DNA of 64,000 nt. Origin: Planctomycetes bacterium GWF2_41_51 (GTDB lineage Bacteria; Planctomycetota; Phycisphaerae; Sedimentisphaerales; UBA12454). The DNA is taken from the NCBI GenBank assembly GCA_001825665.1, contig MHXZ01000053.1, positions 1-64,000 on the forward strand, read 5' to 3'. A program made the translations under genes and the position numbers. Shown here in pieces: positions 51,222 to 63,827 of this stretch. Positions within the stretch are counted from its first letter, which is position 1. Each line of letters starts with the position of its first letter. The notes beneath the pieces were generated by a model. The model ran no database searches and was not told where the DNA came from. It was given only the letters and a program-made list of their open reading frames with translations.

Positions 51222-52265
51222 ATGAAAAAGAAAAGAAACAAACTGGGTTTTACAATCGTTGAGCTTCTCACGGTTATGGCAATCATTGCCATCCTTATGG
51301 GTCTGCTCGTACCCGCGTTGAATCAGGTAAGAAAACTTGCAAAGGATACCAGCCAGCGTGCTCAATTCCACAGTATCGATGTCGCTCTCGAAGCTTTCCA
51401 GAGCGAATACGGCATGTATCCGGAATCGTCAGTTTCTCCGACAACTTTTACAGCAGCTTCGGTAGGCGCTCACAAACTTGCAGAAGCTTTGGTTGGTAGA
51501 GATTTGCTCGGCTTTGATCCCAAGACAACATGGGATGCAGATAATGATGATGACAGTGGAAATCCGGATTATAAGGACATTTATGCAAATCAAAATGCTC
51601 CGCAGAGTTCACCGCCAGAAAAAGTTGAAGCTTCTTTAAAAAGAAGAATGGGACCTTATATCAACACCGATGAAGTCGAGTCTTTCCAGGTTGGACAGTT
51701 ATTTGCAGCTCGAGGAGGAGTGTATCCAGGCAATCTTGATAGTACTGGTACACCTGATACTGCTTATGTTGCAGCCCCGGTTCTCACAGACGTTTATCAC
51801 GCCAAGAGAGTTACTCTCGCTAACGGTTCAACATTAATGGCCGGCACGCCGATTCTCTACTACAAAGCAAATACTAAAGTAGTTACAAAATCCTTCTGTT
51901 TCCCGGATACTATGAATGTTACCCCTTCCGATAGTTCTGACGACTATACCGGAAGTGAGACAGTTGCCGATGCTAATGATGATGGCTTTATTTATAACAT
52001 TATGGATAATGATGAACTTGTCAATTTATTCCAAATGATGAAACCTACCAGTTTAAACCGTCATAAATTTGATGTAGGTCAATCAGAAGATTTTGATGCC
52101 GATGGCACAAATGAAAATGGTGTTTGGAATTTTTACAATGTTATCACCAATCCGAAGATGACCAGCCATCCTCGTCCATATAATATGGATAGTTATATCC
52201 TGATTTCAGCCGGTGCCGATGGCATTTACGGTACAAGAGACGATATTTTCAACTTCAAACAATAA
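51222..52265 (+). CDS. Type II secretion pseudopilin (GspG-like)
   Basis: KLGFTIVELLTVMAIIAILMGLLVPALNQVRK. Confidence 0.9.
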   Translation: MKKKRNKLGFTIVELLTVMAIIAILMGLLVPALNQVRKLAKDTSQRAQFHSIDVALEAFQSEYGMYPESSVSPTTFTAASVGAHKLAEALVGRDLLGFDPKTTWDADNDDDSGNPDYKDIYANQNAPQSSPPEKVEASLKRRMGPYINTDEVESFQVGQLFAARGGVYPGNLDSTGTPDTAYVAAPVLTDVYHAKRVTLANGSTLMAGTPILYYKANTKVVTKSFCFPDTMNVTPSDSSDDYTGSETVADANDDGFIYNIMDNDELVNLFQMMKPTSLNRHKFDVGQSEDFDADGTNENGVWNFYNVITNPKMTSHPRPYNMDSYILISAGADGIYGTRDDIFNFKQ

Positions 52266-52353
52266 AGAAATTACGTCAGCGGTTATGGTTGCAGTTCGCC
52301 GTTATACGTAATACGTAAGACGAAACGAGCCTCGCAACCGTAACTGTTCGACG

Positions 52354-53247
52354 ATGTCCAAAGGGTGCAAAATGAAGACCGAAAAACATAACAACGCCAA
52401 AATTGTCATCCCATTGGGATCTCAATCTTTCGGAAACCCAGATCGGTTTGCTGTGTCGAATCGCAGTCGTAAAGCATTCACATTAATAGAAGTCTTAACC
52501 GCCGTTGTGATTATTGCCATTCTCGTCGGCATTCTCATACCCGCGCTGAATATGGTTAGAAAGATTGCCAAAGATACTCAGCAGAAAGCGCAGATTGCAA
52601 GCATCGAAATCGGCTTAAGCATGTACAAAAACGAAGACACTTTCGGCGATTACCCGCCTTCCGTCGGTTCAACTGGAAATACATATTGCGGCGCACAAAC
52701 TTTGACCGAAGCAATGCTCGGCCAGGATCTCCTCGGTGTTGACCCGAACACTGAATACAAACCGAATGAACTTGGCGGTTTATACGCCGACGCCAACGAC
52801 AGAAAAGGCCCATATCTCGACAGAACGCATATCAGCGTTTTAACTCCGGATCATATTTTTAATTCTGTTACTACTTCACTTGAAAAGGACATGTATGTAA
52901 TTTGTGATGTTTATTCTGCTGTCAAAAAAAGCGTAACTTTTTCAAGTGGTTCTGTGAAAAAAGTAAATATCAGTACGCCGATTCTATATTACAGAGCAGA
53001 TACTTCAAAAACAACAACTAATGATGTTTATGATTTTGCTGATAACAAAGAACTTACCGACCTCGGTGCAGTATCAGATGGCAGATCGCACGAAATAGAA
53101 GCCATCTTTTATAACAATATGATCGAAGACCCGATGTTAACAAACCGTCCCCTAAGACCGGACAGCTTTCTTTTGATATCCGCCGGTAATGATGGCCTCT
53201 ACGGCACTTCCGACGATATCTGTAATTTCGAACCTAATATTGAGTGA
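52354..53247 (+). CDS. Type II secretion pseudopilin (paralogue of preceding gene)
   Basis: KAFTLIEVLTAVVIIAILVGILIPALNMVRKIAKDTQQKAQ. Confidence 0.9.
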   Translation: MSKGCKMKTEKHNNAKIVIPLGSQSFGNPDRFAVSNRSRKAFTLIEVLTAVVIIAILVGILIPALNMVRKIAKDTQQKAQIASIEIGLSMYKNEDTFGDYPPSVGSTGNTYCGAQTLTEAMLGQDLLGVDPNTEYKPNELGGLYADANDRKGPYLDRTHISVLTPDHIFNSVTTSLEKDMYVICDVYSAVKKSVTFSSGSVKKVNISTPILYYRADTSKTTTNDVYDFADNKELTDLGAVSDGRSHEIEAIFYNNMIEDPMLTNRPLRPDSFLLISAGNDGLYGTSDDICNFEPNIE

Positions 53248-53371
53248 TGTGATTAACGCTTTCGTTAATCGGGCAATGGCGGCGATGCTCGTTACGTTTA
53301 ACGTCTGACGATGTCCGAAACGAGCTTCGCAGCCGCTAACCAAGGACGCATAATCATACGGGCGGGGTGGA

Positions 53372-53899
53372 TTGAGAATTAGAAAAATGAAGATAAAATT
53401 GAAACATTCCGGTTTGACGCTTATCGAAGTTCTCGTTTCTGTTACGATTATTGCGATTCTTGCCGCCGGCCTCTTCGCTGTTGGAAATTATATCGACACT
53501 CAGATGAAAATTGAGCGTACAAAATCGACGATTAATCTTCTCGTTGCCGCTCTCGACCAGTATTTCGATTTTTATCATAAATTTCCTGACCCCAATGGTG
53601 CATTAGAAGAATATAGAACCGGATGTGCTAATGATGACAACGATATCGAAAGATTATATTATAAATTAACTCTTGCTCCTGATGCCAAAAAGATTCTTGA
53701 TCAGGTAAACCGCAAATTTTTAAAGGATTCAGATGATGATGAGAATCCTGAAATAGTTGACGCATGGAATGAAAATTTAAGATTTAGATATATAGATGGC
53801 TGGAATTTCCCTGTAATTATTTCCGCCGGTCCGGACAAGGACTTTGGCGACCATAATCCCAAAAAAACCGAAGACAATATCAGCAGTAAAGGACTTTAA
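53372..53899 (+). CDS. Type II secretion pseudopilin
   Basis: SGLTLIEVLVSVTIIAILAAGLFAVG. Confidence 0.88.
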   Translation: MRIRKMKIKLKHSGLTLIEVLVSVTIIAILAAGLFAVGNYIDTQMKIERTKSTINLLVAALDQYFDFYHKFPDPNGALEEYRTGCANDDNDIERLYYKLTLAPDAKKILDQVNRKFLKDSDDDENPEIVDAWNENLRFRYIDGWNFPVIISAGPDKDFGDHNPKKTEDNISSKGL

Positions 53900-53951
53900 A
53901 TAGTGAAGCGTATTTCGCTTCGTAATAGTTTGTGTTAATTCGTGTGAATTC

Positions 53952-54737
53952 GTGGTTAAAAAATGGCGACATAATGCATTCTCTTTGATTGAGCTTCTCG
54001 TGGCTCTCGGCATAATTGCTGCGCTTGCCGCAATAGCTATCCCATCGATTAAGGCGATGCAGAAATCTTTCGATTCCACCGGCGCCGAGAGTATGATTAG
54101 CGCTGCGTTGTCTACCGCAAGAACAATCGCAATCAGCGAGCAAAGATACGCCGGCGTCCGCTTCCAGAAAGCTTATACTCCTGACAATAGCAGTATTCCC
54201 GATATGCCCCAGTACATGATTTTCATAGTCAAAGATTACGATACAAAGCATAATATGGAAAATCTGTTCCGCGTTGTTCCCGGTTACAAGCCCATAAAAC
54301 TCCCGGCAAACACCAACATTACAGATATGTATGTTGACGATGTTAATATTGCCGGAGATGATAAAATCAATGACCCCTGTGAATTGACCGATGCAACTGC
54401 TTTTTCTATTCTCTTTTCACCGGTCGGAAAACTTGTTAATCATGAAATTCGGGTCAGGAATAAAGCAGGCGAAGCTAATCCTACAACATCTACAGCTTCA
54501 GGCCATGACGATGTTTTTAATTCGATTGATAATATAATAAAAAACAATTTAGGATTATTCGTTCAGGATGATAACCCCGATTTGGGTTTGTACAAAGAGC
54601 AAAGCCGCAAAAAATTCAAAATCTACGATTCTGATAAATTTAAAAAGATGGATAAAGACGAACGATATACTAATTATTTGAAGGAATTAAAATTTATTTG
54701 TCTTAACCCTTATACCGGCGAAATAATTAAAAAATAA
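53952..54737 (+). CDS. Type II secretion pseudopilin (GspH-like)
   Basis: NAFSLIELLVALGIIAALAAIAIPSIKAMQ. Confidence 0.88.
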   Translation: MVKKWRHNAFSLIELLVALGIIAALAAIAIPSIKAMQKSFDSTGAESMISAALSTARTIAISEQRYAGVRFQKAYTPDNSSIPDMPQYMIFIVKDYDTKHNMENLFRVVPGYKPIKLPANTNITDMYVDDVNIAGDDKINDPCELTDATAFSILFSPVGKLVNHEIRVRNKAGEANPTTSTASGHDDVFNSIDNIIKNNLGLFVQDDNPDLGLYKEQSRKKFKIYDSDKFKKMDKDERYTNYLKELKFICLNPYTGEIIKK

Positions 54738-54744
54738 AAATAAT

Positions 54745-55635
54745 TTGTGTCTTGGTGCCTTAGTGGCTAAAAAAATGAAAATTAATATCTCTGTGTTCTC
54801 TGCTGAAGCGCAGCGAAAGTCCCCGATTCTTCAGGATTTTGTTCCCTTGAAAACAAAATCAAAGGGGATGAAATCAGTGATAAAAAATAGTGGGTTCTCA
54901 TTAACCGAAGTCCTCATGGCTGTCGGAGTGCTCAGTATCGGCATAATGCTTGTCGCCACGATGTTTCCCGCTGCGCTTTATCTTACCACTGTCGCTTCCG
55001 AAAGAACAATGGCCGCACTCGTTGCCGACCAGGCCTTCGCAAAAATGCAGCTTTACGGTTTTATTCATCAGGATAAGGATGAAGATCGATATACCCGCTA
55101 CAAATTCCGTATGGTTGACCAGGAAAACAAAATAGACCCTAACGAATTTATCTATCATATTGATGGTTCCGGCCAGCCCCAGTATTCCTGGGAGGCTCTC
55201 TGCCGCAAATTAAATGACGATGCTAATGATATGCGTTACAGCGTCAAACTTTACATCTCAAGAAAAACCTCACCCAATCTTAAATATACTGTAGCATTAG
55301 GAATGGCCGGAGATGTTAATTCTGTTACTTGGCCTATGCCCGTTCCGATCAATGTTCAATATACTTCGCCCGACAAGCTGACGATGGAGTATGAAGCAGA
55401 AAAGTTTATTAATCCGCCTCCTGCGACGATAGTTATGGATTATAATTCAGGCCGATTGTTCCGCATTATCAACAGAGAAGATAATGAGGTTACTCTCGAC
55501 CGTTCCTGGGACAAAGATATATCTAATCAGAATATTAAGATCTGGCTTTTGCCTTCACCCGTTGATAGTACCGGTAAACCGACCGGCAAAAATCCGGATA
55601 TAGAAGTCTTTCAAAGAATTATTGATTTCAGATAA
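54745..55635 (+). CDS. Type IV/II pseudopilin (PilV/GspI-like); true start uncertain
   Basis: SGFSLTEVLMAVGVLSIGIMLVATMFPAAL. The annotated GTG start lies in a repeat; ATG 54775 or 54868 is possible. Confidence 0.8.
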   Translation: MCLGALVAKKMKINISVFSAEAQRKSPILQDFVPLKTKSKGMKSVIKNSGFSLTEVLMAVGVLSIGIMLVATMFPAALYLTTVASERTMAALVADQAFAKMQLYGFIHQDKDEDRYTRYKFRMVDQENKIDPNEFIYHIDGSGQPQYSWEALCRKLNDDANDMRYSVKLYISRKTSPNLKYTVALGMAGDVNSVTWPMPVPINVQYTSPDKLTMEYEAEKFINPPPATIVMDYNSGRLFRIINREDNEVTLDRSWDKDISNQNIKIWLLPSPVDSTGKPTGKNPDIEVFQRIIDFR

Positions 55636-55647
55636 AATTAAAAATAA

Positions 55648-56403
55648 ATGAAAAATAATATTCGTGATAATTCGTGTTCATTCGTGGTTAAAACAGCCTC
55701 TTTAGCCAATAAAAAATCGGTGCGGGGATTTACTTTAACCGAGCTTCTCGTCGCGATTGGCTTGCTCGCCGCCGTTATGGCATCTTCAACGATGATTTTC
55801 CATTATTCTATCGAAGCCCACAGAACCGCCATGGCAACCGCCCAGGTTATGCACTCCCTGCGTGCCGTTACAGACCAGCTAAACATCCAGCTCGCTGGCC
55901 TCCGAAAAGACGGCTGGCTCTCTGTCGGTTCCGGAGATTTGTCTTTCTTCACCGTAGGCGATTTCCAGTCGAATTTCAGAGATGATATTCGTTCCAATAT
56001 TGCATGGATTTATTTTGGCCCCGCTAACGATGCGAATGACCCTAACAATTTATTGCTCGATATCAAACTTGTAACGCCCAATCACAACTCCACCGATTGC
56101 CTTATGAAGAGTTTCGCCGACTATCAGGCAAATGCAGACGATTTGCTCGCTTCCGGCAGACCCCATTATAATCCCGACGATCCCTATAATCTCCTCGCCC
56201 AGCGCGTTACAGACCTGGAAATTTACTGGACTGACGGCAGCATAGTTAGTAACAAAATTCAATGGGAGAAGACCATTAAACATTGGAAACCGTCCGACAC
56301 CGATTGGCCCAAAGCCCTGAAATTCACTTTTACCATCCACGACTCTAAAGGCATTTTCAAGGAAGGCAAAACTTTCGAACATATTGTTTATATTGGAAAC
56401 TAA
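55648..56403 (+). CDS. Type II secretion pseudopilin (GspJ-like)
   Basis: RGFTLTELLVAIGLLAAVMASSTMIFHYS. Confidence 0.85.
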   Translation: MKNNIRDNSCSFVVKTASLANKKSVRGFTLTELLVAIGLLAAVMASSTMIFHYSIEAHRTAMATAQVMHSLRAVTDQLNIQLAGLRKDGWLSVGSGDLSFFTVGDFQSNFRDDIRSNIAWIYFGPANDANDPNNLLLDIKLVTPNHNSTDCLMKSFADYQANADDLLASGRPHYNPDDPYNLLAQRVTDLEIYWTDGSIVSNKIQWEKTIKHWKPSDTDWPKALKFTFTIHDSKGIFKEGKTFEHIVYIGN

Positions 56404-56485
56404 AGACACAAAGGCGTTAAGAAAAATATTTACAATTAAAATTCTTCGTGCCTTAGTGCCTTCGTGGCTCAAAGGATTTAGAGAT

Positions 56486-59137
56486 ATGAAAAAGACAAAA
56501 CAATTTGTTTTCAACAAAAACGGCTCAGCCCTCATCATGACCATCGTTCTTACCGTCATGCTCGCCGCCGTTGCCGTTATGTTCCTCGCGATGGCCAGGA
56601 TGGACAAAGCCTCAACAAGCAATATCGCCGACAACAAAATGCTCGATCTGACCGCAATGTCAATCATCGAAATCATAAATAAAGAACTCGTGTACGACAC
56701 TCCCGGCGTCGCAATAAAAGCCGATGTTAATGAATTGGAGCGCCCGCAATATTTCGAATACAAAGATTATCCCGACTCAAACGACCCATGGCTGGCAAGC
56801 ATCGAACCGTATCTTTTTGATAAAAAAGATACCGTCAAAGCGAGCACATATAAATGGCACCAAATCAGCGATATCACTGGTTATTTGGCAGCTCATGATT
56901 TCGAAGTTCAGGATGTTAACGTAAAACCCGTCGGCTTAAGCTCCCTTTACGACGTTCAGGATTATCCGATTTTCGATATGAACGAAGGCGGAGTATTTTA
57001 TAAAATCAGCGGTACTACAAAAACAATAGCACACAATGGCATTTCCGCAGATGCTGATGGCGACGGTATCGCCGATTCAAAATGGTTCGAGCTTTCAGAT
57101 ATGCGAACCACCAACGGCAGAGTCTTCGCCGCAGTAAGAATCATCGACAACGGCGCAATGGCAAATGTCAACACCGCTTATCAATTCAATCCCGACGATA
57201 ATGATGGTAATAATATTAATGGCGTTTCACAGACCCGCATCGACCTCGAAAACCTTTTGAAATCCGGCGATACAATCACTGCTTTGCACAATGCACGCAC
57301 TGATAACCAGGCCGACTGGCCAGGCTTCTTGCAAAATATCGTCTGGGACTTCAACAATTTTCCTGAAAATGGTTACCGTCCTTTCGATATGACCGATGAA
57401 CTTGAACTCCGTTACCGCTTCTGCATCAGCGGCCAAAATGAAAGCCGCTTCGAAACCGCTGTACCGAATACTTCCAAAATAACCGACAAAACCTACAAAG
57501 CAGAATATATTTATGATAGCAGTACGGATTGCAGCCTTGATGATTGGGAGAACCGCCTTTCAGAACCAAATTATATTTTGCGCAGACACCTACTCACAAC
57601 ATACAACTGCGACCGAATCATCGACCCCAACGGCAATAAAATGCTAAACATCAACGATGCCAATACAACATCCCTTTATAATTTATTCAGCAAAGTTTAC
57701 GATTCCAACACCGCCGCACAAATCGCCGTCAATATCTCCGATTACCGCGACGCCGACTCCGATGTAAATGTTTTCACTGCGCCTAATACCGGAAAAAAAT
57801 TCTACGGCTTCGAAGCCCCATGCGTCTACATCTCCGAAATCGCTTATAAACATTGGCAAACAGGAGTTGTACCCCCAGGCGAAGAATATAAATCCTACGC
57901 TATCGAACTTTATAAACCTTATACACAGGACGACTCTGCCGATCTTTCCGATTGGAGTTTGTATGTGGGGGCAACAGAAGTTAAGATTAAAAATTGGTCA
58001 AGTGGTAAATACCACGTAATAAGATGGAAAAGCGCCTCCGATTCCGCACCTTTACAGGCAGACAGTTCCGTACAAGTACAGGATGAGGACCTTGATGTAG
58101 ATAATCCTCCTTTTATACTCCCAGCCACTCTAATCCGATTAGAACGAAAAGCGCAGAATGGTGATAAGATTATTGTTGATATGGAAGCTGTCCCTTCCAA
58201 TATGATTCAACTTGAAACTCATTATAAGCAAAGGGATAACAGAAAGCACCAGTGCATAAGGCGTATATGGAGCGCTGTTATTAACAATGACAATACAACT
58301 CTGGGCAGCGACAACACCTTTGCTCCTGACGATGCTAATATTATTCCTACCTATCCGGCTAATTCTCCTTTGACAAATATTGGAGAAATAGGAAGCATCT
58401 TCCGGAAAAGTGCTTACATCTATAGAGATGCAAATGGCTTTCACAGTATAGAAAATTTTATTGGCTCAGTTGCCTCGCTCAAACTCGAAGAAAATGTCCG
58501 CATCAATCTTACCGATGAGACTTTATATCCTGTTTTCAATTTTGTAACGGCGTTAAAAACTCCCTACGCAAACGATTCCAATGAAACACGGGTAAAAGGC
58601 CGCATTAATATCAATACCGCTCCCGCGCGTGTTATCGCTCAGCTTCCATGGGTTTCGCAGCGAATCGGCGGCTACGATGACCTCGCCCTCGCAAAAGCAA
58701 TCGTCGCCTACAGGGACAAATTGAAAGAAGAAGGAACATCCGAACCGAATTATAATTACGAAGGCCGCCCCGATGCCAACGGCTTCGAAAGCACTGCGCG
58801 CCTTATGAAAGTCCGCAATCTCAGTCCGACCTATAAAAATTACAGCATCGATTGTTATGCCAGAGATGGCAACGATTTGGCAGGTTTCCCCGACCTTAGT
58901 CCTGGCACAACCGGCGATGAAGCGAAAGACGATATGGAGGAGCGCGATGTAATTTTCGCTCGAATCAGCGACCTCGTTACAGTCCGCAGCGATGTCTTTA
59001 CGGCGTATATTCTGGTTCGCATAGGAACCAATGGCCCGCAGAAAAGATACATTGCGATTCTCGACCGCAGCGAAGTTAAAACTCCATCCGACAAAGTAAA
59101 AATCCGCGCATTCCAATATGTCCCCGATGCACGATGA
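56486..59137 (+). CDS. GspK-like minor pseudopilin
   Basis: NGSALIMTIVLTVMLAAVAVMFLAMARMD; helix-hairpin-helix-like INTAPARVIAQLPWVSQ. Start moved to ATG 56486. Confidence 0.8.
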   Translation: MKKTKQFVFNKNGSALIMTIVLTVMLAAVAVMFLAMARMDKASTSNIADNKMLDLTAMSIIEIINKELVYDTPGVAIKADVNELERPQYFEYKDYPDSNDPWLASIEPYLFDKKDTVKASTYKWHQISDITGYLAAHDFEVQDVNVKPVGLSSLYDVQDYPIFDMNEGGVFYKISGTTKTIAHNGISADADGDGIADSKWFELSDMRTTNGRVFAAVRIIDNGAMANVNTAYQFNPDDNDGNNINGVSQTRIDLENLLKSGDTITALHNARTDNQADWPGFLQNIVWDFNNFPENGYRPFDMTDELELRYRFCISGQNESRFETAVPNTSKITDKTYKAEYIYDSSTDCSLDDWENRLSEPNYILRRHLLTTYNCDRIIDPNGNKMLNINDANTTSLYNLFSKVYDSNTAAQIAVNISDYRDADSDVNVFTAPNTGKKFYGFEAPCVYISEIAYKHWQTGVVPPGEEYKSYAIELYKPYTQDDSADLSDWSLYVGATEVKIKNWSSGKYHVIRWKSASDSAPLQADSSVQVQDEDLDVDNPPFILPATLIRLERKAQNGDKIIVDMEAVPSNMIQLETHYKQRDNRKHQCIRRIWSAVINNDNTTLGSDNTFAPDDANIIPTYPANSPLTNIGEIGSIFRKSAYIYRDANGFHSIENFIGSVASLKLEENVRINLTDETLYPVFNFVTALKTPYANDSNETRVKGRININTAPARVIAQLPWVSQRIGGYDDLALAKAIVAYRDKLKEEGTSEPNYNYEGRPDANGFESTARLMKVRNLSPTYKNYSIDCYARDGNDLAGFPDLSPGTTGDEAKDDMEERDVIFARISDLVTVRSDVFTAYILVRIGTNGPQKRYIAILDRSEVKTPSDKVKIRAFQYVPDAR

Positions 59138-59442: not shown

Positions 59443-59733
59443 TCAGTCCATTGCAATATTATATAGATCTTTCCATTCAGGATTTTTGCTTTTTATTAGT
59501 TGGATTTTTTTAGCTCTTGAGCCCGCTTTAATTTGTTTCTCTGCTGCTATAGCATCCATGATTTTGTTAAATGTTTCAAAATAGACCAATTTGTTTATAT
59601 TATATTTTTTCGTAAAGGCTGACCCTTTTTTATTTTTATGTTGAAATACTCGTCTAATTAAATCATTTGTCACGCCGGTATAAATTACTGTATTGTTCAT
59701 ATTAGTCATTATGTAAACCCAATAATTTCTCAT
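59443..59733 (-). CDS. GIY-YIG nuclease family protein
   Basis: YWVYIMTNMNNTVIYTGVTNDLIRRVFQHKNKKGSAFTKKYNINKLVYFE. Confidence 0.92.
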   Translation of the reverse strand: MRNYWVYIMTNMNNTVIYTGVTNDLIRRVFQHKNKKGSAFTKKYNINKLVYFETFNKIMDAIAAEKQIKAGSRAKKIQLIKSKNPEWKDLYNIAMD

Positions 59734-59871: not shown

Positions 59872-61524
59872 TTACGTCCTAAACATCCCCATTATAATCC
59901 TTCCTATAATTACATTGATTGCCGCAAACACCGGCAGCAGCAATACTCCCAAATACATCAGCAAAGAAATAACAGTTGTGCCCGTGGTAGGAAGTTCCGT
60001 GGTTGAATTTTTCAGCAAATATTTGACCGTTTCAATTTTCTTTCTGAAAGGCTGTCTGTCGAAGGGCTTTACTTTTAACATATTGAAAATCGATGGTACA
60101 AGAATTTCATCTTTAAGCTCGATATTCTCATCCCTGATTTTGCGTTTAAGCTCAGCCATTAGGCGATTTTGTTGAATTCCCGAAAACACACCTGCGCATA
60201 ATGAAACCGAAATTATGAACAATATCGGATCCGCAAAATGTATCCCTGCAAGCACAAGAACGATAATCGACAAAACTGAAAACGCGTTTTTCAAAAATGG
60301 AACTTTTGAAAACAGCGCCAGCTCAAAAACTCTTCCTCCGTCAAGAGGCATAATCGGAATTAAATTAATATAATTTAAAATAAGCATGAATATGCCGAAT
60401 TGCATTAAAATATCGCCTCTGTTCCTGGATAACATTACCAGGCATGCCCCGATGATAATTCCCGGCGCAGGCCCCATAAGATAAACGGTAATTTTTTGAA
60501 GAACGGTTGCTTTTGATTCAGAACCGAAAGTTGCCGCCCCAAACGGCATAAACAAAATATGAACATCCTTATATTTAAACAGCCGCATCATAATATAATG
60601 TCCAAGTTCATGAATCAGCAGAACGCCGATCATTATGAAAATTACTTCGAATGAAAACTTTATTTTGAATGCAAAGATAAAAACCAGCAAGCTTATCAAA
60701 AACACTGCTATACTGCCTATAAACCCTGTTTTGCCGCTTTTCAATATGTCCTGCATTTTGAAAAAAGCTTCACTTTCCGCTTCGACAGGTACATTCACCG
60801 GCTTTGAAAGCTTATTGATTCCGGATTTTTTAACCTTGTTTGCGCCCTTGATATATTGCAAAATACATTTTATCGCAGGTATAAAACGCATTTGAAAATA
60901 CTGTTCATCCGCAGGTTTTATAAAGCCCTGAATCTTCAGACTTTCAAAATATTCGTTCATTAAAGTTTTCTCGGCAGCTGCAAACTTTTCTGCACTCGGA
61001 GTAATCAATTGTTTTTGCCGTTTTAATTTATTATGTTCTTCAAGATGTGCCTGGAACTGTCCTTCAATGGTTGGCGAATAAGGATCGATTAATGTTGTAT
61101 TTGGAATTTCACCGAATAAATCGTGCGCAGAACAATTTAAGGTATACAAACTGTAACCGTCTGAAAAAAGCGAAACAAATGCGAATTTAACTGGAGCGTT
61201 CTGATTTATCAGCATAGAGGACTGCATTTCTGCATAGCACATTATTGAAGGATTGAAATACACCGCTATTATTCTTTTGGAATATTCGCTGATTACGAAT
61301 TCCTCTGCGATTTGATAATGCGAAAATTCGAATCCCAATTCGTTGAGTTTCGCCGCGTATTCGTCGAAGAGGTTTTTCAAATAGTCCGGAACATCCGCAG
61401 CCTCGCACAAGGTGCAGTTTCCTTTTTTGAACCGCAATTTGAGCATCATCCTCAAAGCGCCGATGAGCGAAATGATCTTTATAAGAACGAAAAAACCAAT
61501 GAGATAGATGATAAAAAATTTCAT
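59872..61524 (-). CDS. Site-2-protease-like M50 membrane metallopeptidase
   Basis: GVLLIHELGHYIMMRLF (HExxH), NLIPIMPLDGGRVFELAL. Confidence 0.88.
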   Translation of the reverse strand: MKFFIIYLIGFFVLIKIISLIGALRMMLKLRFKKGNCTLCEAADVPDYLKNLFDEYAAKLNELGFEFSHYQIAEEFVISEYSKRIIAVYFNPSIMCYAEMQSSMLINQNAPVKFAFVSLFSDGYSLYTLNCSAHDLFGEIPNTTLIDPYSPTIEGQFQAHLEEHNKLKRQKQLITPSAEKFAAAEKTLMNEYFESLKIQGFIKPADEQYFQMRFIPAIKCILQYIKGANKVKKSGINKLSKPVNVPVEAESEAFFKMQDILKSGKTGFIGSIAVFLISLLVFIFAFKIKFSFEVIFIMIGVLLIHELGHYIMMRLFKYKDVHILFMPFGAATFGSESKATVLQKITVYLMGPAPGIIIGACLVMLSRNRGDILMQFGIFMLILNYINLIPIMPLDGGRVFELALFSKVPFLKNAFSVLSIIVLVLAGIHFADPILFIISVSLCAGVFSGIQQNRLMAELKRKIRDENIELKDEILVPSIFNMLKVKPFDRQPFRKKIETVKYLLKNSTTELPTTGTTVISLLMYLGVLLLPVFAAINVIIGRIIMGMFRT

Positions 61525-62042
61525 TGAGACTCCTTACAAAATCTCCCCAAATTATATCAATCTTAAAATGTCTGAATAGCAAATTCCGCGCAATCTGCCT
61601 CATCTTGCAATTTGTGATTAAATGTCCAATTTGCGTCAAAACTATCCTATTCTGTACCCCTAATATATATAAATAATGCTTCATTTTGCTATGCTTTTCC
61701 CACCATTTTTTATTAAATTCCGCGAAAATCCGCGAAATCCGTGGTTAATTTTTCGATTTTAGCAAATTCGTTGTAAATACCAGTAATTCAAGGACTTAAT
61801 GTTCAAAAAACTGCCATAAGTCTTTATTTTACGTTAAAAATGGTGCTTGCAAAAGTGATGCGTTTTTTGCAAAAAATACCCGTTTTCAGCTTAAAAACGA
61901 AGCTGAAAACTTGCGCGTTCTTCGCAAATCGTAACGGTAATTTCCTGATAAGAAAAATCGTTTTATCCCCGATTTTTTTAGTGAAATTTAACGTTAGAAT
62001 CCCTCAAACTGAATTTAACAACATTAATGGAAAGGGCATAAA

Positions 62043-62186
62043 ATGTGTGCTGATAGTGCTTTATGTGATTGTGGCAGGGAACTGGAACAGGGTCTTTGCA
62101 GCGGCTGTAAAAAACCGGTTGACACGTGTGTATGTGAAGAGGTATGTCCCGGTTGCGGCCAGCCCGTTGACGAATGCACCTGTTGA
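62043..62186 (+). CDS. 47-aa Cys-rich mini-protein with tandem CxxCxxPVDxCxC repeats (absent from supplied ORF track)
   Basis: Translation MCADSALCDCGRELEQGLCSGCKKPVDTCVCEEVCPGCGQPVDECTC*; 11 Cys; GGAAAGG RBS upstream. Confidence 0.65.
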   Translation: MCADSALCDCGRELEQGLCSGCKKPVDTCVCEEVCPGCGQPVDECTC

Positions 62187-62227
62187 GTGCTTTCTATACT
62201 TTTTGTAAGTGTTGATGCTATAAGAAC

Positions 62228-62686
62228 TTATTCAGCTTCTTTTTCGCTGATTAATTTATAAAGTTCTTCAGAAGTTTGCGAATTTTGAAGTTTATTTTTA
62301 AATTCTTCATCCAGCATAAGTCTGCTGATTCTTGCAAGTGCCTGAATATGCGGACCGGTTCTATCGATTGGCGATGCTATTAAAACAACGATATGGACTG
62401 GTTTTCCATCGATACTTTGAAAATCTATACCCTTATGTGATATGCCGATTGCCATCACTAAGTCTTTTACCCCAGAGCATTTACCGTGCGGTATAGCTAT
62501 GCCGAAACCTATTCCTGTGCTTTTCGTGCTCTCTCTTGTCAGTACCGCCTGATAGACTTGGTCACGATTAAGGAGCAATCCTTCTGCATCAAGTAGATCA
62601 ACCAGTTCTTCAATAGCTGTTTCTTTGTCTGTGCCTTTAAGCGGAACCTTAACACATGTCGGCTCAAGAATTTGTGTCAAAACCAT
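62228..62686 (-). CDS. PTS EIIA(Ntr)-type protein
   Basis: VLTRESTKSTGIGFGIAIPHGKCSGVKDLVMAIGIS. Start at internal Met (62686). Confidence 0.88.
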   Translation of the reverse strand: MVLTQILEPTCVKVPLKGTDKETAIEELVDLLDAEGLLLNRDQVYQAVLTRESTKSTGIGFGIAIPHGKCSGVKDLVMAIGISHKGIDFQSIDGKPVHIVVLIASPIDRTGPHIQALARISRLMLDEEFKNKLQNSQTSEELYKLISEKEAE

Positions 62687-62771
62687 TTTTACTAAGACCT
62701 TTAAAAATAAGAATTTAAAATTAATGCAAACTAACAATTATATCATTCTGCTTTGTCAGTGGCAATATATT

Positions 62772-63827
62772 TTAATGAATTAGCATACAGTCGCCATAGG
62801 AATAAAATCGGTATTTTTGTTCCACCGCGTGATTGTATGCATTTAAAACGTTCTCAAGTCCTGCAAAGGCCGCTATTAACGCCAATAAAGTCGATTTCGG
62901 CAAATGAAAATTCGTTATCATCGCATCGGTAATTTTAAATTCAAAACCCGGTGTTATAAAAAGTTTAGTATAACCCTTTGATGGCACAATACTTCTGGCA
63001 TTTGTTTCAAGAGCGGCGGTTTCAAGCGTTCTTACCGCAGTAGTGCCGACTGCAATTATACGCCCGCCTGATTGAATGGTTTTGTTGATCATTCCTGCGT
63101 TTTCCTCATTTATTTCATATTCTTCGCTATGAATTTCATGTTCTTCAAGCGTTTTAGTCTTTACCGGCAAAAACGTTCCCGCCCCAACGTGCAAAGTGAT
63201 TTGCGCAATGGAAATACCCATTTTTTTGATTTTTTCAAGGATTTCAGCAGTAAAATGCAGCCCCGCTGTAGGTGCGGCAATTGCGCCTTTGTGCCTGGCG
63301 AAAACCGTCTGATAACGATTTGAATCAAGTGAATGCTTATCAAGCGGCTGGGGTCTTTTTATATATGGCGGCAGGGGAGAAAAACCAATTTTTTCAAGGA
63401 TTTCATGAGTATCCAACTCTGACTCAGGTCTTATAATCCATTGGCCGGCTTCGAGTTTCGTTTCGATATGAGCAGGGCAAAATTGGTTTTTATTTCGATC
63501 GAGCAGAAATATTGTTTGTTTTTCTTTTATTTTCGACGAATTTTTCAGCATTACGCTCCATTTTCCATCCTGTATTGAAAGGAAAAGACCTTCAATTTTG
63601 GCACCTGTATTTTTTTGCGCGAAAAATCTTGCCGGTATTACTTTGGTATTATTAATCACAAGGCAATCATCTTTTCGGAGGTATTGACAAATGTCCGTAA
63701 AATTGGAATCGATAATAGAACCGTTGAAACGGTTCAAAACGAGCATTCTGCTGCCGCTGCGGTCATCGGCTGGTTTTTGGGCGATAAGCTCCGGCGGTAA
63801 ATAATAATCTAATTTTAACATTTCCAT
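62772..63827 (-). CDS. queA: S-adenosylmethionine:tRNA ribosyltransferase-isomerase
   Basis: LDYYLPPELIAQKPADDRSGSRMLVLNR, GAIAAPTAGLHFT, THVGAGTFLPVK-like ITLHVGAGTFLPVK. Confidence 0.95.
   Translation of the reverse strand: MEMLKLDYYLPPELIAQKPADDRSGSRMLVLNRFNGSIIDSNFTDICQYLRKDDCLVINNTKVIPARFFAQKNTGAKIEGLFLSIQDGKWSVMLKNSSKIKEKQTIFLLDRNKNQFCPAHIETKLEAGQWIIRPESELDTHEILEKIGFSPLPPYIKRPQPLDKHSLDSNRYQTVFARHKGAIAAPTAGLHFTAEILEKIKKMGISIAQITLHVGAGTFLPVKTKTLEEHEIHSEEYEINEENAGMINKTIQSGGRIIAVGTTAVRTLETAALETNARSIVPSKGYTKLFITPGFEFKITDAMITNFHLPKSTLLALIAAFAGLENVLNAYNHAVEQKYRFYSYGDCMLIH

Follow-up and report, generated by a model that had tools for sequence, protein, structure and literature searches.

A conserved 47-aa cysteine-rich gene in a planctomycete genome and its relation to a wider family of small proteins

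Near the right-hand end of a 64,000-nt stretch of the genome of Planctomycetes bacterium GWF2_41_51 (contig MHXZ01000053.1, positions 1 to 64,000; this whole stretch is called the window here) lies a very short ORF with an unusual number of cysteines. An earlier, sequence-only reading had proposed that it encodes an overlooked zinc-binding or metallothionein-like miniprotein. This raises the question of whether the ORF is a gene at all and, if it is, to which kind of protein it belongs. Based on comparison with related genomes, we found that the ORF is a conserved gene under purifying selection, and we used its relatives, its surroundings and the spacing of its cysteines to weigh what its product may do.

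A short cysteine-rich ORF and the conservation of its frame

The translation given by the sequence-only reading was recovered exactly: 47 aa, MCADSALCDCGRELEQGLCSGCKKPVDTCVCEEVCPGCGQPVDECTC, followed by a stop codon (read from the sequence). The cysteines stand at residues 2, 8, 10, 19, 22, 29, 31, 35, 38, 45 and 47, make up 23% of the protein and form three C-x-C and three C-x2-C pairs, and there is no histidine. Two 13-residue repeats, which had been noted before, were found again as C-x2-C-x6-C-x-C units that are identical to each other at 8 of 13 positions (Table 1); a pattern search met this tandem arrangement in only one of 392 genomes sampled across the phylum, that of the window itself. 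None of 200 base-shuffled windows held a short ATG ORF with 11 cysteines—the maximum was typically 5 to 7, and 10 at the top—so the ORF is more than a product of chance.

Our protein search for the 47-aa protein covered the window's own genome and 58 relatives, 59 genomes in all. Full-length copies are present in two of the six other genomes of the genus that we examined, G005 (87% identity; also found as JAKJEQ010000085.1, a Planctomycetota metagenome-assembled genome) and G001 (77% identity; MHYA01000003.1, Planctomycetes bacterium GWF2_42_9), and the length and all 11 cysteines are invariant across the three orthologues. The gene is absent from the other ten genomes of the taxonomic family examined, and no further full-length copy turned up when 161 genomes of the order were searched with a profile. 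Among the three pairs of orthologues, substitutions at codon positions 1/2/3 number 1/3/24, 8/3/21 and 7/2/25, which puts 24/28, 21/32 and 25/34 of them at third positions (binomial p of 1.6e-8, 1.9e-4 and 1.9e-6). Nei-Gojobori pN is 0.06-0.12 compared to a pS of 0.66-0.88; since synonymous sites are near saturation, omega is merely bounded as low (<=0.09 where finite). The frame, on whose loss in close relatives the earlier proposal had been staked, is thus kept in two congeners, which lends strong support to the claim of a real small protein. The gene is presumably translated, and a Shine-Dalgarno-like sequence that the same reading had pointed out does precede its ATG, with GAAAGGG kept in the two other species.

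Table 1. Positions of the 47-aa gene, its parts and its surroundings in the window
Feature	Coordinates	Strand	Basis
Six consecutive prepilin-like proteins, then a 917-aa protein	51222..59137	+	N-terminal methylation motifs; 917-aa protein without Pfam match
96-aa GIY-YIG domain protein	59443..59733	-	Pfam 1e-14
M50-peptidase gene	59872..61524	-	
122-aa ORF in another frame	61840..62208	+	
GTTAGAATCC, possible -10 region (TAGAAT)	61993..62002	+	three-genome alignment; inference
Shine-Dalgarno-like GGAAAGGG, 6 nt before ATG	62029..62036	+	sequence; GAAAGGG invariant in three genomes
47-aa ORF, 11 Cys	62043..62186	+	translation; orthologues 87% / 77% identical; mostly third-position changes
CDCGRELEQGLCSGC, residues 8-22, homologous to the MCQxCGCxPC family	62064..62108	+	family profile matches from residue 7
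First 13-residue unit CSGCKKPVDTCVC, residues 19-31	62097..62135	+	sequence; pattern search
Second 13-residue unit CPGCGQPVDECTC, residues 35-47	62145..62183	+	sequence; pattern search
PTS EIIA (fructose/nitrogen type), convergent neighbour	62228..62737	-	Pfam PTS_EIIA_2 2.9e-39
QueA (queuosine synthesis), next after EIIA	62772..63827	-	Pfam Queuosine_synth 5.6e-126

Genomic setting

In all three genomes the 47-aa gene converges with the PTS EIIA gene, which is followed by queA. The other side differs: the upstream neighbour is the divergent M50-peptidase gene in the window, a phosphorylase-like ORF in G001 and, further off, a short helix-turn-helix-like ORF in G005 (the latter two identified from the sequence by visual inspection). 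With its upstream side so variable and its downstream gene convergent, the 47-aa gene is most simply read as monocistronic. Beyond the M50-peptidase gene, the window holds a GIY-YIG domain protein and then a row of prepilin-like proteins suggestive of a type II secretion/pseudopilin cluster. The EIIA gene occurs in 13 of 13 family genomes examined, but the 47-aa gene follows it in only three. In an EIIA tree G001 groups weakly with G002, a genome without the 47-aa gene, and we saw no remnant of the gene in G002.

The coding region and GAAAGGG remain aligned across the three genomes, whereas little of the upstream flank can be aligned. The other stretch in common is GTTA[GA]AATCC, ~45 nt before the start, which could serve as a -10 region; no good -35 was seen for it, and a consensus scan did not list the site. 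Because the 122-aa ORF overlaps the gene in another frame, gene-calling programs might mistakenly pick it over the 47-aa gene. The latter is shorter than common ORF length cut-offs but, as a coding gene whose conservation is demonstrated, is worth annotating.

A wider family of 38-40 aa proteins

A profile search with the 47-aa form led to a set of 38-40 aa proteins of the pattern MCQxCGCxPCxxCGxxIxxGVCSGCxKxxxxCxC. With a profile of five members, we detected this family in 43 of 158 relatives, almost exclusively within the order, and in 10 of the 392 genomes sampled across the phylum, scattered through Planctomycetota. Most copies are preceded by a purine-rich ribosome-binding site. Clustering of flanking ORFs revealed no shared neighbour beyond local synteny and thus no conserved partner gene that would suggest a target for the 47-aa protein. 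In some members (L055, L061, L062, L064-L068) the Cys domain is followed by a long tail rich in Asp and Glu, e.g., ...CTCEPLDEELNYDEEEDEDFDDEDEEEDEDF...

The 47-aa protein aligns with this family from residue 7 to about residue 34 and matched its profile at 7.9e-6 in the genome search. As a control, we scored a profile of 36 family members against 2000 shuffles of each 47-aa protein with every cysteine held in place. The three proteins score 32.8-34.7 bits compared to shuffle maxima of 17.7-20.4, and none of the 6000 shuffles reaches the true score, which supports homology; the 47-aa protein therefore resembles the family beyond its cysteine positions (32.8 bits against a shuffle maximum of 19.2). 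Both forms have in common a Met-Cys start, the core CG-x-x-[IL]-x-x-G-x-C-x-GC-x-K-x4-C-x-C, the ribosome-binding site and their status as orphan genes. The 47-aa protein, however, starts MCADSALC instead of with the N-terminal MC[QED]xCGCxPC of the family, and for this reason we treat it as a diverged relative and not as an ordinary member. It further differs in that C-x-CG replaces C-x2-CG and a second 13-residue unit is added.

Within the taxonomic family, the shorter form is encoded only in the three genomes that have the 47-aa gene. The copy in the window's genome (G000:C42:56726-56842, L032) has a one-base deletion relative to those of G001 and G005 that replaces the final C-x-C, through either decay or an assembly error. 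There is also a more ambitious account, which we consider speculative and rather doubtful: that the 47-aa and 38-40 aa proteins are undescribed planctomycete zinc-dependent regulators, associated for example with the ribosome or with transcription, and that one genus built the two-unit form from a one-unit ancestor whose copy is now decaying here.

No model in Pfam, NCBIfam, PHROG or PADLOC covers the 47-aa protein or the wider family, so that all four profile libraries searched lack this family of Cys-rich small proteins, which extends over Planctomycetota. Pfam zf_DPOE_2, DUF1289 and PRK06824 were rejected as identities of the 47-aa protein, all being sub-threshold, as were its PDB profile matches (all E>0.04); an AlphaFold2 model from three sequences was poor (pLDDT 54.6). 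Neither form, 47 aa or 38-40 aa, matched plasmid or phage records. A single IMG/VR match, ECPDCEMPIDECTC, forms the linker of a phage prohead protease/capsid-like fusion protein (L070:1678-3723); it carries a C-x2-C-x6-C-x-C motif in an unrelated setting and was taken as motif similarity only. A literature search with peptide strings found no match, and the 47-aa gene is probably unnamed.

Function of the product and the nearest known systems

We favour the view that the product is a cytosolic structural zinc-finger mini-protein, an adaptor or regulator, which we hold to be probable by analogy. What favours it are the knuckles with conserved G, P and D, a unit spacing like that of DENR and the parallel with C(P)XCG u-proteins. 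The C-x-CG...C-x2-C part and the C-x2-C-x6-C-x-C units would be expected to hold about two Zn(II), with a possible third shared with C2/C8/C10, and the 47-residue chain would fold around the metal. The folded mini-protein would probably bind a larger partner, protein or RNA, as C(P)XCG u-proteins are thought to. The 47-aa form may have arisen in one group of the genus as a divergent relative of the order-wide 38-40 aa family, with the second unit added at its C terminus.

The strongest alternative, which we nevertheless regard as unlikely, is a metallothionein-like peptide that buffers or detoxifies Zn, Cd or Cu in a thiolate cluster. The density and pairing of the cysteines speak for it, as does the restriction of the 47-aa gene to one lineage, which is frequent in metallothioneins. 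Like the 47-aa protein, the bacterial metallothioneins BmtA/SmtA are small and Cys-rich, but their Cys spacing is different and histidines are common in bacterial metallothioneins (PMC10612145), whereas here there is none. Moreover, no Pfam metallothionein model matches at E<=1, the cysteines fall into regular knuckles whose G, P and D are conserved, and in none of the three genomes does a transporter, SmtB/ArsR or other metal gene adjoin. Of the two options in the sequence-only reading, zinc therefore stays plausible, from the Cys pattern and the homology to the wider family, and the metallothionein option is disfavoured.

Considerably less probable still is an iron-sulfur or redox mini-protein, for instance one with a CDGSH-like [2Fe-2S] site. 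C8-x-C10-G-x7-C19-x-G does have the CDGSH spacing C-x-C-x8-C, and its profile matches 3tbm weakly (E = 0.43). However, compared to the full motif C-x-C-x2-[ST]-x3-P-x-C-D-G-[STA]-H, three cysteines are in register but P and D are missing, and so is the D-G-[ST]-H end with its His ligand; no Pfam CDGSH model matches at E<=1; and the first pair in the 38-40 aa family is C-x2-C instead of C-x-C. The possibility that there is no gene here, and that the ORF either arose by chance or belongs to the 122-aa ORF or to a regulatory RNA, can draw on the shortness of the ORF and on the longer overlapping frame, but deserves virtually no credence, since the conserved frame with its third-position substitutions already contradicts it, the 122-aa frame is not conserved (a stop falls inside it in G001) and the locus has no Rfam match up to E = 1.

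Returning to the structural zinc-finger reading, the single units have a counterpart in translation factors. The N-terminal zinc finger of DENR has the same C-x2-C-x6-C spacing in Cys34/37/44, as demonstrated crystallographically (PMC6013234), with its fourth ligand elsewhere (Cys53). The SUI1/eIF1-like proteins L004, L009, L015 and L016 of this planctomycete order open with MCPxCGxPxxxCxC or a slight variation on it, a motif that hardly differs from the 47-aa protein's second unit. A search of the window's own genome for a SUI1 factor carrying it came back empty, a result to which we attach no weight. The 47-aa protein, however, has no SUI1 domain, and its likeness to DENR/SUI1 factors amounts to one motif, a 14-residue match to PRK06824 at E = 0.051.

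For the protein as a whole, the nearest parallel is with the C(P)XCG u-proteins of Haloferax volcanii (HVO_2753, HVO_0758 and others; PMC11241148, PMC10716476, and PMC6562870), which likewise have <70 aa, several C-x2-CG-type motifs, stand-alone genes and predicted structural zinc. These are archaeal and are likened here by kind alone, not by sequence relation, and the 47-aa protein adds C-x6-C-x-C ends and 11 cysteines. It fits their description (<70 aa, at least two C(P)XCG-type motifs) through CPGCG at residues 35-39 and the related CDCG (8-11) and CSGCK (19-23), although strictly only one of the three is a canonical C(P)XCG motif. Most of the Haloferax proteins tested bind zinc, and several do not; HVO_2753 has four C(P)XCG motifs but binds a single zinc, not two (PMC11241148), and the motif is therefore no guide to stoichiometry. 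Of 16 deletion mutants, 12 showed a phenotype under one or more conditions (PMC6562870). Orphan proteins of this small, Cys-rich zinc type are already a known kind, and we claim no new mechanism here; what the 47-aa protein and the 38-40 aa family add is a defined target for small-protein proteomics and metal-binding work in Planctomycetota.
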